A stretch of 52,503 bases of DNA, taken from assembly GCA_020850535.1 (NCBI GenBank), contig JADZEM010000130.1, forward strand, positions 1-52,503. Reading direction: 5' to 3'. The first letter of the stretch is position 1. Each line of letters begins with the position of its first letter. The position numbers and the translations under genes were made by a program. Shown one piece after another: positions 11,350 through 52,389 of the stretch. Under the pieces are notes generated by a model that did not search any database, was not told the DNA's origin, and was given only the letters and a program-made list of their open reading frames with translations. The stretch comes from Chloroflexota bacterium. Its GTDB lineage: Bacteria > Chloroflexota > UBA6077 > JACCZL01.

Positions 11350-12264
11350 ATGAACGAAGTCGCCGCATTTGTCGACCTGGAGAACATCCGCTATTCGATG
11401 CTTAACCGGTGGCATCAGGAGCCGGATCCTCTCGCATGGCGCGATAAGGCGCGGGCGTATGGGCTGATCGGCATTGCGCGGGCCTACGCTGACTACGAGC
11501 AGCATCCGCCCCAGCTTCGTCAGCGGCTCAACGTCGCAGGCTTCGAGGCCGAGCACTACCCGGTCAAGCGCTATCGCGACCGAGACGGCACCGAGCGCAT
11601 CCGCAGCATCGCGGACTTGCACATGGTCATCGACATTGTCGATACCGCCCTCGGCCGCCCGAACATCGACACGTTTCTCTTCTTCACCGGCGATGGCGAC
11701 TTTATCCGCGTCGTGGCGATGCTGCGGAATCGACTTGGCAAGCGGGTCGTCATCTGCGGTGTGCCCGAGACGACCAGCCGCGACCTCGTCATCGCGGCCG
11801 GCGAGGAAGACCCGCTCGAAGTCTCCGAAGTCGTCTCCTCGCCGGAGGTTGACGCTGCGCTGATCGCGCGGATCGAGGAGTACGAGCGCAGCCTGTACGG
11901 CGGCTTCCTGCCTACGCAGGGCAACCTCATCGCGTGGCTCAAGCAGCGGCTGGAGGTTGGCCTCCTCCCGAGCGAGCAGATCGACGGCAAGATCCTCGAG
12001 TTCATCCGGCAGGGCATCCTCTACAAGCAGCTTGAGACCAGCTCGCGCGGCAAGACGCTGACCACCACGCGGTTGCGGCGCGACCATCCCATCGTCGAGC
12101 GGATCATCGGCAAAATGCTGCTCGAACCGGGCGGCGAGCCGATGGCGCCCGAGGACGATGACGATGACCTTGACGACGAGGATGACGTGCCCGGACTGGC
12201 GTTCGAGCGGCCGATGCCGCGCGTCCTCGGGGCGCACCCCTGGCCGCCAGACCTGCGCGACTGA
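11350..12264 (+). CDS. NYN-domain (LabA/DUF88-like) PIN-fold protein
   Basis: 304 aa. The N-terminal part (about residues 1-155) is a NYN domain, a PIN-like ribonuclease fold: FVDLENIR carries the first Asp, SIADLHMVIDI the second acidic cluster, and FFTGDGDFIRVV the third. These residues coordinate metal in PIN nucleases, so RNA cleavage is plausible but unproven. A C-terminal part (about 175-260) looks like a winged-helix or OST-HTH-type RNA-binding module (LPTQGNLIAWLKQRL...ILEFIRQGIL). It ends with a very acidic tail (DDDDDLDDEDD). GAGGGCAGG lies just upstream of the ATG. Transcribed alone, between a Crp-type regulator and a repeat copy. Confidence 0.88.
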   Translation: MNEVAAFVDLENIRYSMLNRWHQEPDPLAWRDKARAYGLIGIARAYADYEQHPPQLRQRLNVAGFEAEHYPVKRYRDRDGTERIRSIADLHMVIDIVDTALGRPNIDTFLFFTGDGDFIRVVAMLRNRLGKRVVICGVPETTSRDLVIAAGEEDPLEVSEVVSSPEVDAALIARIEEYERSLYGGFLPTQGNLIAWLKQRLEVGLLPSEQIDGKILEFIRQGILYKQLETSSRGKTLTTTRLRRDHPIVERIIGKMLLEPGGEPMAPEDDDDDLDDEDDVPGLAFERPMPRVLGAHPWPPDLRD

Positions 12265-12290
12265 CCGTCTCCGGCTGACCTCCGCGTCGG

Positions 12291-12507
12291 CAGGGCGATT
12301 GCCTGTTCATTGGTGTCCCCGGAGCATCATGGAACGGGCGGTCGGGGACTGAAGTCCCCGCCTACAGTCACACCGTCGCTGCGCGACGGACGCCGGGAAC
12401 GGCAGGCACTGGTGCGACTGGCGCGTCGCGCAGCGACTGCATGCGTGTAGGCGGGGCTTTCAAGCCCCGACGCGGCGGCACGACGACATCAACATGCGAT
12501 CGCCCTG
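12291..12507 (+). repeat. Full-length palindromic repeat, copy 2
   Basis: 217 bp and the cleanest copy: it opens with CAGGGCGATTGCCTGTT and closes with AACATGCGATCGCCCTG, which are near-perfect terminal inverted repeats. The internal arms match copy 1, except that TGCAGGATC in the right arm reads TGCATGCGT. It lies 27 bp after the stop of the NYN gene. Confidence 0.93.
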
Positions 12508-12595: not shown

Positions 12596-12672
12596 GGTGG
12601 GCGTAGCGTAGCGGTTAACGCGCCAGGTTGTGGCCCTGGAGATCGAGGGTTCGAATCCCTTCGCTCACCCCA
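12596..12672 (+). tRNA. tRNA-His (anticodon GTG)
   Basis: A full cloverleaf can be drawn. Acceptor GTGGGCG pairs with CGCTCAC. The anticodon stem CCAGG/CCTGG holds the loop TTGTGGC, so the anticodon is GTG. The T arm is GAGGGTTCGAATCCCTT. An extra G at 12596 can pair with discriminator C 12669, the identity element of tRNA-His. CCA (12670-12672) is encoded. Confidence 0.96.
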
Positions 12673-12709: not shown

Positions 12710-12786
12710 GCGCCCGTAGCTCAGTGGACTAGAGCACGTGGCTTCGGACCACGGGGTCGGGGGTTCGAATCCCTCCGGGCGTGCCA
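12710..12786 (+). tRNA. tRNA-Arg (anticodon TCG)
   Basis: Acceptor GCGCCCG pairs with CGGGCGT. The anticodon stem CGTGG/CCACG holds the loop CTTCGGA, so the anticodon is TCG, reading CGA. The T arm is GGGGGTTCGAATCCCTC. CCA is encoded at 12784-12786. It lies 37 nt after tRNA-His and is probably co-transcribed. Confidence 0.96.
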
Positions 12787-12839: not shown

Positions 12840-13105
12840 CGTTCTGCCCCGTGGCCAGATGTCATCCTGCCGACAGTTCGGCCAGCGCCCGCCGAAAATG
12901 ACGACCGGCCCAGAACCGCCGGCCGTAGTCAGAGTAGGTGCGCGCACACCACCGAGAAACGGCGCCAGCGTCCTCGCCACCCGAGCGCCGTCGTCCCGAT
13001 CAGGCGACGGCGTCGGAGTAGCGGCGGAGACCACCGGCGAGACCAACAAGTGAACGGTCAGGGCATCGCGCCCGAGCCGCACAGACGAAAGCACGGAGCA
13101 ACACG

Positions 13106-13210
13106 ATGACCCGCGAACTGCACGACGACACCTTCATCACCCTCGAGCCTGAGACCGACCTCGACGGCGATCAGCTCTCCAACCAGTCGATCAACGATCC
13201 GGACGACTAG
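13106..13210 (+). CDS. Acidic 34-aa micro-protein with C-terminal NDPDD (twin 1)
   Basis: Encodes 34 residues starting MTRELHDDTFITLEPE and ending DQLSNQSINDPDD. GGAG at 13095-13098 is 7 nt before the ATG, a good ribosome site. A second small gene 181 nt downstream ends in the same pattern, LSNQ-x2-NDPDD, directly before its stop. In the shared LSNQ block three of four codons differ only at the third base, as expected if the peptide rather than the DNA is conserved. There is no Cys, no signal peptide and no membrane segment; the peptide is strongly acidic. A hairpin (13225-13247) follows. The function is unknown: a signalling peptide, a protein-interaction tag or a modified-peptide precursor are all possible, but no modifying enzyme is nearby. 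Confidence 0.7.
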   Translation: MTRELHDDTFITLEPETDLDGDQLSNQSINDPDD

Positions 13211-13224
13211 GCCGCCAGCAGGCC

Positions 13225-13247
13225 TGTCGGGTGTGTCAGCCCCGACA
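13225..13247 (+). terminator. Hairpin after micro-protein gene 1
   Basis: TGTCGGG and CCCGACA form a 7-bp stem with a 9-nt loop, 14 nt after the stop codon. No T tract follows, so it may be a weak terminator or an RNA-stabilising element. Confidence 0.35.
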
Positions 13248-13288
13248 TCCGGGCCGTTCGGATGCTGACAGAGCGGCGCTTCAGGGGG

Positions 13289-13298
13289 TGGTACAGTG
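13289..13298 (+). promoter_or_regulatory. Candidate extended -10 box upstream of micro-protein gene 2
   Basis: TGGTACAGTG, an extended -10-like sequence. The identical 10-mer occurs upstream of the PP2C gene at 22501-22510. No matching -35 at normal spacing. Confidence 0.3.
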
Positions 13299-13391
13299 TC
13301 GATGTGGCGAGGACGCCAGCCCGCGCAGGGCGAGCTTTCCGCCACTGACACTGACCGAAACGCATGACAACACTTCTGGGGGAGGATGGAC

Positions 13392-13475
13392 ATGTACGAA
13401 GACAGCTACGTCGACGAGGGCGGCGACATCAGCGAGGATCTGTCGAACCAACCGGAGAACGATCCGGACGACTAG
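13392..13475 (+). CDS. Acidic 27-aa micro-protein with C-terminal NDPDD (twin 2)
   Basis: Encodes 27 residues, MYEDSYVDEGG...SEDLSNQPENDPDD. The purine-rich GGGGGAGG (13378-13385) is 6 nt before ATG 13392, an excellent ribosome site; an in-frame ATG at 13386 abuts it and is unlikely to be used. The last eleven residues share nine positions with the peptide at 13106. The upstream halves are both acidic but not alignable residue by residue. The gene is followed by two hairpins, at 13484-13501 and 13528-13563. No family is recognised. Confidence 0.7.
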   Translation: MYEDSYVDEGGDISEDLSNQPENDPDD

Positions 13476-13483
13476 ATCCGCCG

Positions 13484-13563
13484 GGCCGGCCACCGCCGGC
13501 CTGGCACCCAGATTCTCAAGACATCGACACAAGGCCCGGGGGCTGTCCCTCCCGGGCTTTGTG
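13484..13563 (+). terminator. Double hairpin terminator after micro-protein gene 2
   Basis: First hairpin GGCCGGC-CACC-GCCGGCC (13484-13501). The second is larger: CACAAGGCCCGGG (13528-13540) pairs with CCCGGGCTTTGTG (13551-13563) with one G-T pair and a 10-nt loop. The second resembles a terminator with the T-run inside the descending arm. It ends about 176 bp before the next gene. Confidence 0.65.
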
Positions 13564-13739
13564 CTGTCCGGCGGCCGGGCCGGAGCGCACAAGCTCGGCA
13601 GATGCACCCGGCCCCGCCGAAAATCGTCCCTCGGCATGAACCCTGCAACCGCACCTCTCCAGCATCCCCGCTCGAACCCCTCGAACCCGAGGACCGCACG
13701 CGCGCATGAGGGGATTCGAGCGCTGTTGGAGGTTCACAG

Positions 13740-15377
13740 ATGCCACCGCAGAATCAGCGAACGTCGACGGGGCGCGGGACGAGCAACGCCCGCGCCAGCG
13801 TCCGGCAGATCGAGAAAGGCTGGTCCGTGCACGACGTCGTCGAGCGGGCCATCGGCAACGTCACGGACGTGGACACCGCCCGTGAGATGCTGGTGATCGA
13901 CGGGCGGCCGGCCGGCTTCAACGCCTTCGAGGTGCCGTTTGCGTTGATCGCGCGGACGGAAGGCAACGATGTCTTCCTGTCCCAGATGCTTGACGCGCAG
14001 GCCTCGGCGAACGACGACGTCCCCCACTTCGTCGAGCCGCCACGCACCACGAGCACGACGCCAGCCCACACGAGCACGTCATCGCCCCTGTCGACGCCGG
14101 CCACACCGTCCACCGTCCCGACGACGTCATCCGCCGACCCGACGAGGCCATCCGTGGGCGCGACCACTGTGGGCGCGACCACTGTGGGCGCGACCACTGT
14201 GGGCGCGACCACTGTGGGCGCGACCATGGCAGGCGTGGGGCCGACCGCGTCTTCAGTCGGCTCGGCGACCTCGGCCTCGGACGTCTCAAGCTCGACCGCC
14301 GACGCCGCCCGGCCACGCGCGACAACCATTCCACACGCCGCGACGGCCCCGACCGATCCACGCATCACGCCGATGTATCCGGACGAGTACCACGAGCCGG
14401 AGAGTCGCTGGACCGCCACCACGATGACGCTCAGCGGACTGGCCGTCGGCGGGCTGGCGGCAGCCGCCTATCTGCTGCGGCAGAAGCTGCGCCGCAAGTC
14501 GCGGATGGAGCGCTTCGCGGACGCCGCCAACGCCTGGGCAGGCGTCGCCGCCGACTTCGCACGGGATCGGAACCCTGCCTGGTGGGGCGGCCTCGCGGCG
14601 ACGGTCGTGCCGCTGGCGGCCTATTACGCGTGGCCCGAGAAGGAGACGCCAACACGGTCGGTCCGGCAGGCAGCAACGGCGTCAGAGCAGTTGGCCGACA
14701 TGCTGGATCGCGGCCTCACGGATCTCGCGACGTGGCTGCCGATGGCGGGCGCGGCGACATCCGACTCCGTGAGCACCGGCATGCGGCGGCTCCAGGACTC
14801 CGTGACGCAGATGGAGATGCCCGAGAACTGGAACCGGCCGTCGCAGTGGTCCGTGCCAACCGAGGCGGCGCTCTCCGGGGCGCTGATCGCCGTCAGCGGG
14901 CTGGCGATCTATCTCGCGCGGCGAGGGGCACACACGGCACGGTCGGCCCGCATCGCCGACGTGATGACGCGCCGCCCGCGCACCATCCACCCGAACGCCA
15001 CGGTGGCGGACGCTGCCGCCCTGATGCGCCAGCTCGACGTGGGCGGACTGCCCGTCTGCGACGGCTCGCGCCTGATCGGCATGGTCACCGACCGCGATAT
15101 CGCGATTCGCTCGGCGGCGGACGGGCACGACCCGCACCTGACGCCGGTCCGCGACATTATGTCCAGCGGCGTGGCCTGGGCCACCGAGGATGACCCGGTG
15201 GAGGAGGCCGCCCGGATCATGCGCGAGCATCGCATCCGGCGGCTGCCGATCGTGGACGAGCGGCACAGCCTCGTCGGCGTCGTCTCGCTGGGCGATCTGG
15301 CCGTGGATGTGAACGACCGCGACCTGTCGGGCAAGGCGCTGGAGGAGATCTCCGCGCCGTCGAAGCCGGAACGCTAG
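13740..15377 (+). CDS. Membrane protein with tandem CBS domains
   Basis: 545 aa. Residues about 1-95 form a small N-terminal domain (IEKGWSVHDVVERAIGNVTDVDTAREMLVIDGRPAGFNAFEVP) that looks like a PRC-barrel or stress-type adaptor; I cannot assign it firmly. Then come a Ser/Thr/Pro-rich linker with five VGAT[TM] repeats, hydrophobic segments at about 226-245, 281-297 and 376-396, and a C-terminal CBS pair (about 405-520) with VMTRRPRTI, MVTDRDIAIR and HRIRRLPIVDE. CBS pairs sense adenosyl nucleotides, so the protein may couple energy state to a membrane process. It follows the micro-protein genes by 264 bp and has no operon partner. Confidence 0.8.
   Translation: MPPQNQRTSTGRGTSNARASVRQIEKGWSVHDVVERAIGNVTDVDTAREMLVIDGRPAGFNAFEVPFALIARTEGNDVFLSQMLDAQASANDDVPHFVEPPRTTSTTPAHTSTSSPLSTPATPSTVPTTSSADPTRPSVGATTVGATTVGATTVGATTVGATMAGVGPTASSVGSATSASDVSSSTADAARPRATTIPHAATAPTDPRITPMYPDEYHEPESRWTATTMTLSGLAVGGLAAAAYLLRQKLRRKSRMERFADAANAWAGVAADFARDRNPAWWGGLAATVVPLAAYYAWPEKETPTRSVRQAATASEQLADMLDRGLTDLATWLPMAGAATSDSVSTGMRRLQDSVTQMEMPENWNRPSQWSVPTEAALSGALIAVSGLAIYLARRGAHTARSARIADVMTRRPRTIHPNATVADAAALMRQLDVGGLPVCDGSRLIGMVTDRDIAIRSAADGHDPHLTPVRDIMSSGVAWATEDDPVEEAARIMREHRIRRLPIVDERHSLVGVVSLGDLAVDVNDRDLSGKALEEISAPSKPER
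14154..14226 (+). repeat. 15-bp tandem repeat inside the CBS gene
   Basis: GTGGGCGCGACCACT occurs four times without change (14154-14213) and a fifth time as GTGGGCGCGACCA. It is in frame and gives VGATT repeats in the linker, so copy-number change would not shift the frame. Confidence 0.95.
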
Positions 15378-15511: not shown

Positions 15512-16939
<1,428 letters not shown>

Positions 16940-17075
16940 CACGATTCCTCCCGTACTAGCTGCCCCTCGCGCAACGGCATCCGCGGCCCATTGCACGGGG
17001 ATCGTTCGCTCATCAGGTATGGAAGGAGTGTAGCGCGGAACGGGCGTGCCTCACCCGTCCCGCTGCACGATGGCC

Positions 17076-32216: not shown

Positions 32217-32432
32217 CAGGGCGACTGCATGTTCATTGGTGTACCCGGAGCATCATGGAACGGGCGGTCGGGGACTGAAGTCCCCGCCTACAGTCACGCC
32301 GTCGCTGCGCGACGGTCGCCGGGAACGGCAGGCACTGGTGCGACTGGAGCGTCGCGCAGCGACTGCAGGATCGTAGGCGGGGCTTTCAAGCCCCGACGCG
32401 GCGGCACGACGACATCAACATGCAATCGCCCG
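32217..32432 (+). repeat. Full-length palindromic repeat, copy 3
   Basis: Opens CAGGGCGACTGCATGTT and closes AACATGCAATCGCCCG, with both inner arms intact. It is followed at once by copy 4; the join (32429-32448) is itself a perfect 7-bp hairpin, CCCGGAC-TGATTC-GTCCGGG. Confidence 0.93.
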
Positions 32433-32445
32433 GACTGATTCGTCC

Positions 32446-32624
32446 GGGCCATTGCATGTTCATTGGTGTCCCCGAAGCATCATGGAACGAGCGGTCGGGG
32501 ACTGAAGTCCCCGCCTACAGTCACGCCGTCGCTGCGCGACGGCCGCCGGGAACGGCAGGCACTGGTGCGACTGGCGCGTCGCGCAGCGACTGCAGGATCG
32601 TAGGCGGGGCTTTCAAGCCCCGAC
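32446..32624 (+). repeat. Palindromic repeat, copy 4, truncated at its right end
   Basis: Starts GGGCCATTGCATGTT and runs through both arms, but stops at CCCCGACG instead of continuing to the right terminus. Beyond it is the dehydrogenase coding sequence. Its last bases encode the C-terminal residues and the stop codon (TGA, plus-strand 32613-32615) of that gene. Confidence 0.92.
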
Positions 32625-33638
32625 GAGGTTGGTCGGCTGGCCCGCCAGGAACGCTCGGATGTTGCCGACCGTCGTGTCAAGGATCCGCCGCACGGCCTCG
32701 TGGCTGTTGAACGCGATGTGCGGTGTCAGCACGACGTTCTCGCGCCGCTGGAGCAGGTGCAGCCGCATGGCGGCCTTCAACTGCTCCTCGGCGCCGGTGT
32801 CCGTCGCCAACAACTGCTCTTCACGGTTGACCATATCCTCGCCCTCGAACACGTCCAGGCCGGCCCCGCCGAGGATGCCGGCGTCGAGCGCCCAGAGCAG
32901 CCCGTCGGTGTCCACCAGCTGCCCGCGCGCCGTGTTGATCAGCAAGGCTCCCCGCTTGACCTTCGCCAGCCGCTCGCGGTCGAGCAGGTGGCGTGCGCCA
33001 GCGCTGTACGGCAGGTGGAGGCTGATCACGTCCGATGTCGCGAGGAGCGTGTCGAGATCGACGTACTCGAAGCCGAGCACGTCGGCGATCAGGCGATTCT
33101 GGCGCAGGTCGCTCGCCACGACCTCCATCCCGAAGCCCTTCGCCATCCGGATGACGTGCAGGCCGATGCTGCCGGCCCCGATGATGCCCAGCCGCTTGCC
33201 CTGGAGGTCGAAGCCGCGCAGCCCCTCCAGGCTGTAGTTGCCGGCCACCGTCCGGACATAGGCCCGGTGCACGTTCCGCGAGAGCGACAGGATCAGCGCC
33301 ATCGTGTGCTCGGCCACGGTGTTCTCGCCGTAGTAGGGCACGTTGGCGACCTGAATCCCGCGCGCCTTCGCCGCCGCGAGATCGACATGATCGAAACCGG
33401 TCGAGCGGGTCGCCACAAAACGCAAGTCGGGCATGGCGGCCATCACGTCGGCGGTGACGCGTGACATGATGAACACCGACACGATGTCGGCGTCAGCGGT
33501 GGGGCCGACACGGCCCGGCAGGAGCAAGTCGCTGGTGGCGCGCACCTCGACCTCCGGTAGCTGCTCCCGCAGGTACGGCTCCTCCCACCCCTCGAGATCG
33601 AAGAACACGGCAACGGGCTTCTCGGACACGGCCTTCAC
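32613..33638 (-). CDS. D-isomer-specific 2-hydroxyacid dehydrogenase (second of three), D-lactate-dehydrogenase-like
   Basis: 341 aa. NAD-binding GIIGAGSIGLHVIRMAKG; catalytic Arg in NTARGQLVDT, Glu in FEGEDM and His in LTPHIAFNS. The insertion MVNREEQLLATDTGAEEQ before the His block is typical of D-lactate dehydrogenase-type members. The C-terminus is unusual: the last residues (VGA) and the stop are read from the adjoining repeat (copy 4), so the native end has been replaced or trimmed. It diverges from the split transketolase operon. Confidence 0.92.
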   Translation of the reverse strand: MKAVSEKPVAVFFDLEGWEEPYLREQLPEVEVRATSDLLLPGRVGPTADADIVSVFIMSRVTADVMAAMPDLRFVATRSTGFDHVDLAAAKARGIQVANVPYYGENTVAEHTMALILSLSRNVHRAYVRTVAGNYSLEGLRGFDLQGKRLGIIGAGSIGLHVIRMAKGFGMEVVASDLRQNRLIADVLGFEYVDLDTLLATSDVISLHLPYSAGARHLLDRERLAKVKRGALLINTARGQLVDTDGLLWALDAGILGGAGLDVFEGEDMVNREEQLLATDTGAEEQLKAAMRLHLLQRRENVVLTPHIAFNSHEAVRRILDTTVGNIRAFLAGQPTNLVGA

Positions 33639-52172: not shown

Positions 52173-52389
52173 AGGGCGATCGCATGTTGGGTGTGTCGTG
52201 CCGCCGCGTCGGGGCTTGAAAGCCCCGCCTACCATCCTGCAGTCGCTGCGCGACGCCCCGGTCTCACCAGACGACGCCGTTTCCGGTGTCCGTCGCGCAG
52301 CGACGGCGTGACGGTAGGCGGGGACTTCAGTCCCCGACCGCCCGTTCCACGATGCTTCGGGGACACCAATGAACAGGCCATCGCCCTGA
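52173..52389 (-). repeat. Full-length palindromic repeat, copy 5 (inverted)
   Basis: Same element as copy 1 but in the opposite orientation. Its outer flank, read on the minus strand, is ACTGGTAGCAGCAT, the same as bases 1-14 of the window directly before copy 1, so the two copies share flanking DNA as well. Confidence 0.93.

Follow-up and report, generated by a model that had tools for sequence, protein, structure and literature searches.

In the window, the 52,503-nucleotide stretch of Chloroflexota DNA analysed here, two short genes on the same strand, ORF1 and ORF2 (products p1 and p2), occupy the spacer between a tRNA-Arg gene and a gene for a PRC-like/CBS-domain protein (Table 1). Their coordinates, lengths (34 and 27 aa) and separation (181 nt), reported in a preliminary description of the locus, were verified, and both proteins finish with LSNQ-x2-NDPDD immediately before the stop codon. 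The ribosome sites proposed for them were also found: CGGAG, at suitable spacing, before ORF1 and GGGGGAGG before ORF2. An alternative ATG at 13386 would extend ORF2 to 29 aa; the start at 13392 is preferred because of its spacing behind GGGGGAGG. Both products are, as described, strongly acidic (11 D+E vs 0–1 K+R) and free of Cys. Further out lie genes for G3P dehydrogenase and a Crp-type regulator, together with riboflavin genes. The CBS domains of the downstream protein are certain, its PRC-like label comes from sub-threshold Pfam matches, and its linker (14155–14228) carries an in-frame tandem repeat, GTGGGCGCGACCACT, in about five copies (VGATT).

Table 1. Twin genes, hairpins and syntenic anchors (positions in the window).
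Feature	Position	Strand	Remarks
NYN-domain protein	11350..12264	+	Upstream syntenic anchor; 86–87% identical orthologues in sister genera
tRNA-His(GTG)	12597..12672	+	Syntenic anchor
tRNA-Arg(TCG)	12710..12786	+	Syntenic anchor
ORF1 (p1), acidic microprotein gene	13106..13210	+	MTRELHDDTFITLEPETDLDGDQLSNQSINDPDD; four-member profile match E 5e-16
ORF2 (p2), acidic microprotein gene	13392..13475	+	MYEDSYVDEGGDISEDLSNQPENDPDD; four-member profile match E 3e-11
First hairpin after ORF2	13480..13505	+	11 bp; fold of 13472–13565
Second hairpin after ORF2	13528..13563	+	15 bp; terminator-like, without a proper U-tract; fold z −5.0 for 13472–13565
PRC-like/CBS-domain protein	13740..15377	+	Downstream syntenic anchor
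Fumarase (Lyase_1/FumaraseC_C)	15512..16996	−	Outer syntenic anchor

The twins differ at three synonymous positions within LSNQ (CTC TCC AAC CAG vs CTG TCG AAC CAA), so the description of third-position changes under fixed residues was accurate. When an equal number of substitutions is placed at random in the 11-codon ends, the observed protein identity is matched with p ~0.004. The final 18 nt (AAC GAT CCG GAC GAC TAG) are identical; thus NDPDD itself has no synonymous divergence in the twins, which, taken alone, are weak evidence that selection acts on the protein. The 7.65 Mb genome has the DNA word for NDPDD-stop at two sites only, both in the twin locus; the word was absent from a reversed control and from the other 28 genomes of the class.

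Two paralogues elsewhere in the same genome extend this evidence. A two-sequence profile, searched over 400 genomes of the phylum, gave one further own-genome match, p3 (MRTLFELDSDIEIVNDPMDGMDDLSNQPINDADD, on C172; E 0.57), which has a GGAGGT ribosome site upstream. Once p3 had joined the profile, p4 (MRDLRELDSDIEITNDPLESDDLSNQSSDDGND, on C191) was matched at E 4e-7; its gene is preceded by an AAGGAG ribosome site and a promoter-like pair, TTGACG-17-TATGCT. With the four-member profile every copy scored 3e-11 or better, and no other own-genome match fell below E 2; since members match their own profile by construction, the E value of p4 before inclusion is the independent figure. The genes of p3 and p4 are compact units of ribosome site, 33–34 codons and strong hairpin, and their DNA similarity begins at the ribosome site and ends with the ORF. 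They differ by one whole-codon indel and keep ELDSDIEI-x-NDP, the N-terminal half being conserved as strongly as LSNQ. Protein identity between them exceeds that expected from random placement of equal substitutions (p 0.006–0.011); Nei-Gojobori estimates for the whole pair (0.25 vs 0.23) give no synonymous excess, with the TCG/AGC serine switch there scored as nonsynonymous. Protein-level constraint, proposed from the twins, is upheld by the random-placement result and the paralogues, but not by the NDPDD part, which is identical in DNA.

LSNQ, present in all four own-genome copies, is their best-conserved block and is encoded by CTC/CTG, TCC/TCG/AGC, AAC and CAG/CAA. The paralogues end in NDADD and DDGND, so the C-terminal NDPDD signature is a property of the twins and not of the whole family; the notion of NDPDD as a general conserved C-terminus fails likewise for the sister-genus counterparts described below, which end in PDEDD and DPDE. 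What is shared more widely is LSNQ among the copies of one genome and, between genera, a tail that is short, acidic and rich in Asn/Asp. A DLSNQ/ELSNQ pattern found, beyond the known copies in the own genome, two frame accidents only. An NQxxN[DE]P[DE][DE]stop pattern, which demands Pro and is blind to p3 and p4, gave 18 matches in a contig scan, none of which contains LSNQ or lies in a comparable ORF.

Genes of this kind are scarce. We scanned 692 kb of the own genome for ATG ORFs of 22–50 codons that follow an SD-like site, have a D+E content of 22% or more and carry a net charge no higher than −6. Five turned up, p1–p4 among them, against one in the reversed control; because the criteria were set with the family already known, and some of the scanned DNA was selected for containing it, the relevant background is about one non-family ORF in 692 kb. 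In 436 kb of G002, a genome of a sister genus, the same scan returned the syntenic gene only. The fifth own-genome ORF of the scan (L205 5402, + strand, C106; MAALVEEVWSCIGQVDSIDEMEMLADLDASRDEDGD) has no family signature.

The order NYN gene, tRNA-His, tRNA-Arg, spacer, CBS gene, fumarase is the same in G001 and G002, two genomes of the same bacterial family that represent two sister genera. Between tRNA-Arg and the CBS gene each of them has a single SD-preceded acidic ORF (MAMRRWLETVQPEAEAEVLEEEVYGGNSINDPNPSGNPDEDD and MTRWTLLDTVEPLEGFGTEGEEGMEGEGGDINDPNPSGGDPDE), with divergent products of 42–43 aa and tails ...SINDPNPSGNPDEDD and ...EGGDINDPNPSGGDPDE. The two sister genes resemble each other: INDPNPSG is common to both, and of the five nucleotide differences in their last block, four leave the residue unchanged (p 0.009). 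Each has a five-residue word in common with one of the twins, SINDP in the case of p1 (alignment-score shuffle p 0.0015) and EGGDI in that of p2 (p 0.003); these p values are uncorrected for the 15 pairs tested. Sequence homology of the sister genes with p3/p4 was not significant, and the family link thus runs through position and the twins; profile searches from either group failed to join the sister genes with p1–p4, and it took inspection of the syntenic spacer to reveal the sister-genus copies. We take these ORFs as counterparts at an ancestral locus, in which case they have diverged fast compared with the neighbouring NYN protein. The homologues of the twins sought after the preliminary description comprise two own-genome paralogues and two syntenic sister-genus counterparts, with the frame kept and synonymous-biased change.

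The copy between tRNA-Arg and the PRC-like/CBS gene is ancestral-looking and present in three genera, and to that extent the suggested association with tRNA-adjacent loci is borne out; it does not extend to p3 and p4, which have no tRNA within the stretches examined. Other PRC-like/CBS homologues (C146 in the own genome, C50 in G002 and C69 in G008) have no adjoining acidic ORF. A search for a syntenic p3 in the sister genera matched only the ferritin gene (G002), with no comparable acidic ORF within 1.5 kb of it. The neighbours of p3 are a 189-aa protein without a confident family, an FAD monooxygenase, ferritin and a cupin; those of p4 are two glycosyltransferase-type membrane proteins, ZnuA and an amidohydrolase. 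The scanned neighbours of p1/p2, p3 and p4 include no common partner, no RiPP-type modification enzyme and no dedicated peptide transporter. The 189-aa protein (L067 905–1474, − strand, C172) has two internal repeats of the SADELKTKLES/SSDELKSRLDS type and one Pfam match only, below threshold.

The earlier statement that no described family covers these peptides agrees with the database searches: p1–p4 had no Pfam or NCBIfam match even at E 10, Pfam likewise had no match for the two sister genes at E 1, and PHROGs returned no more than two weak single-member matches, the better at E 0.023, which we attribute to chance. No relatives were found in viral contigs or, with one query, in plasmids, and profile searches of ~400 phylum genomes yielded no convincing relatives; the weak out-of-family matches were inspected in part, and those inspected proved to be either unrelated frames or segments from within long proteins. 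Rfam gave only tRNAs above threshold near the twin locus. A DNA search of 60 relatives produced recurrent matches to ORF1 (query 53–124), most of which we take to be the CTP synthase gene pyrG; its resemblance to MTRELHDDTFITLEPETDLDG was taken as chance. At the DNA level the ORF1 start (13102–13173) is ~73% identical to a stretch inside pyrG, likewise judged chance because the own-genome pyrG is no closer. Within the sequences searched, this rapidly evolving family is limited to one bacterial family, and profile searches alone undercount small proteins that evolve so fast.

ORF1 and ORF2 are very probably genuine protein-coding small genes that had been overlooked. That they are chance ORFs or a decaying DNA repeat with no protein product, as their small size and the identical 18-nt end of p1 and p2 might suggest, is highly improbable and already disfavoured by the four copies, the whole-codon indel, the synonymous changes, the SD sites, the ORF-bounded similarity and the syntenic counterparts. 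Paralogy and synteny here identify genes of 27–43 codons as real independently of expression data or a database family. Orphan intergenic smORF families (GMSC, PMC11364881; sORFdb, PMC11796252) are alike in being short and domain-free, with their own ribosome site, protein-level constraint and narrow spread; the present family differs by its extreme acidity, four paralogues in one genome and a syntenic anchor in three genera. Its members may well sit, unnamed, in small-ORF catalogues, of which GMSC holds 965 million non-redundant smORFs (PMC11364881).

Translation, disorder, a partner and a mode of action are inferences here. The products carry ~10 net negative charges and few basic residues, lack Cys and any hydrophobic stretch and show, by eye, no hydrophobic export signal. 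In a single-sequence AlphaFold model of p1 (mean pLDDT 68) the N-terminus forms two short strands and the tail is modelled with low confidence; together with composition, this one model suggests that the products may be disordered, with the N-terminus of p1 perhaps partly ordered. The best overall reading, to which we give a probability of about 0.4, is that they are fast-evolving, lineage-restricted, cytosolic and largely disordered acidic binding microproteins. In this genome the copy at the ancestral-looking locus is duplicated in place, as p1 and p2, with the p3 and p4 copies elsewhere. A short N-terminal motif (M-R-x-L-x-E-L-D or M-T-R-W-x-L-L-D-T-V, up to E/D-P) would dock on a partner, a basic surface of which would be covered by the mostly disordered, acidic tail, rich in Asn/Asp/Pro, in the manner of a nucleic-acid-mimic or charge-competition type regulator. 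Given coding, this specific binding mode has somewhat less than an even chance. Ocr/Gam-type nucleic-acid mimics and the acidic tail of the RNA polymerase delta subunit likewise combine high negative charge with a small soluble protein; the p1–p4 family is much shorter, has no demonstrated sequence relation to them and no phage or polymerase context, and a nucleic-acid-mimic role is common to no known relative. A fuller proposal is doubtful: an undescribed family of acidic regulatory microproteins would evolve so fast that different genera have no more than position, length and charge in common, the N-terminal docking word and the acidic Asn/Asp tail would bind a conserved cellular target, and each paralogue would tune that target under a different promoter. 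Recognition of the C-terminus by a protease, receptor or modifying enzyme, raised in the preliminary description, is a guess. If translated, the family could readily be used to find out what extremely acidic bacterial microproteins bind.

One alternative is that the products are precursors of a ribosomally made, modified peptide (RiPP): an ELDSDIEI-type N-terminal leader would precede an LSNQ..NDPDD or INDPNPSG core, whose Asp, Asn or Ser would be modified by an enzyme encoded elsewhere. The genes share with such precursors their length, multiple copies, separate ribosome sites and, between p3 and p4, a conserved N-terminal half, and the LFELD word of p3 is reminiscent of the FxLD box in lanthipeptide leaders, a lead only. 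They differ in having no peptide modification enzyme or transporter beside the loci scanned, no Cys, no match to NCBIfam precursor models or Pfam at E 10, and, where a variable core would be expected, the conserved LSNQ. We consider this identity unlikely.

The downstream hairpins invite another explanation, that the ORFs are leaders whose translation steers a terminator-like hairpin ahead of a downstream gene, as in attenuation by, for example, Asp/Asn-tRNA supply. One long GC-rich hairpin (13–15 bp; fold z −3.6 to −6.0) stands 18–53 nt past the stop codon in five of the six units, all but p1. In addition, p2, p4 and the two sister copies each have a co-directional gene behind them, and the ends of the ORFs are rich in Asp/Asn. 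Of the hairpins described after each of the twins, those after ORF2 are very strong and those after ORF1 only weak (z −1.7), so that p1 and p2 may share one transcript. U-tracts are weak in all units save the G002 gene (T5), and a terminator scan made no call at the second ORF2 hairpin. Pairing of the hairpin arm with the preceding ORF, as an antiterminator would require, was no better than in shuffles in four of five units (p2 alone p 0.015), which argues against attenuation. A short ORF before a strong hairpin, sometimes ahead of a co-directional gene, is the point of likeness to attenuator leader peptides; conservation of the amino-acid pattern over the full length is the point of difference, and the mechanism leaves the conserved L, S, Q and N-terminal half unexplained, while the downstream genes are unrelated. 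Attenuation is accordingly quite improbable.

Minimal metal-binding peptides are a very unlikely third alternative, in which TDLDGDQLSNQ (p1) and DPMDGMDDLSNQ (p3) would act like the Asp-rich calcium loops of thrombospondin type 3 repeats or EF-hands: the DxDGD spacing of p1 and the high Asp content fit, whereas the Gly/Asp spacing of such loops is missing from p2, p4 and the sister genes, and Pfam gave no match at E 10.

Apart from the genes, the window contains five near-complete copies of an imperfectly palindromic interspersed repeat of ~210 bp with core GGGGACTGAAGTCCCCGCCTACA (15–224, 12281–12500, 32217–32426, 32440–32628 and 52179–52388). The repeat is MITE-like; the sampled own-genome DNA has many copies, often near contig ends, and none was found in 436 kb of G002.
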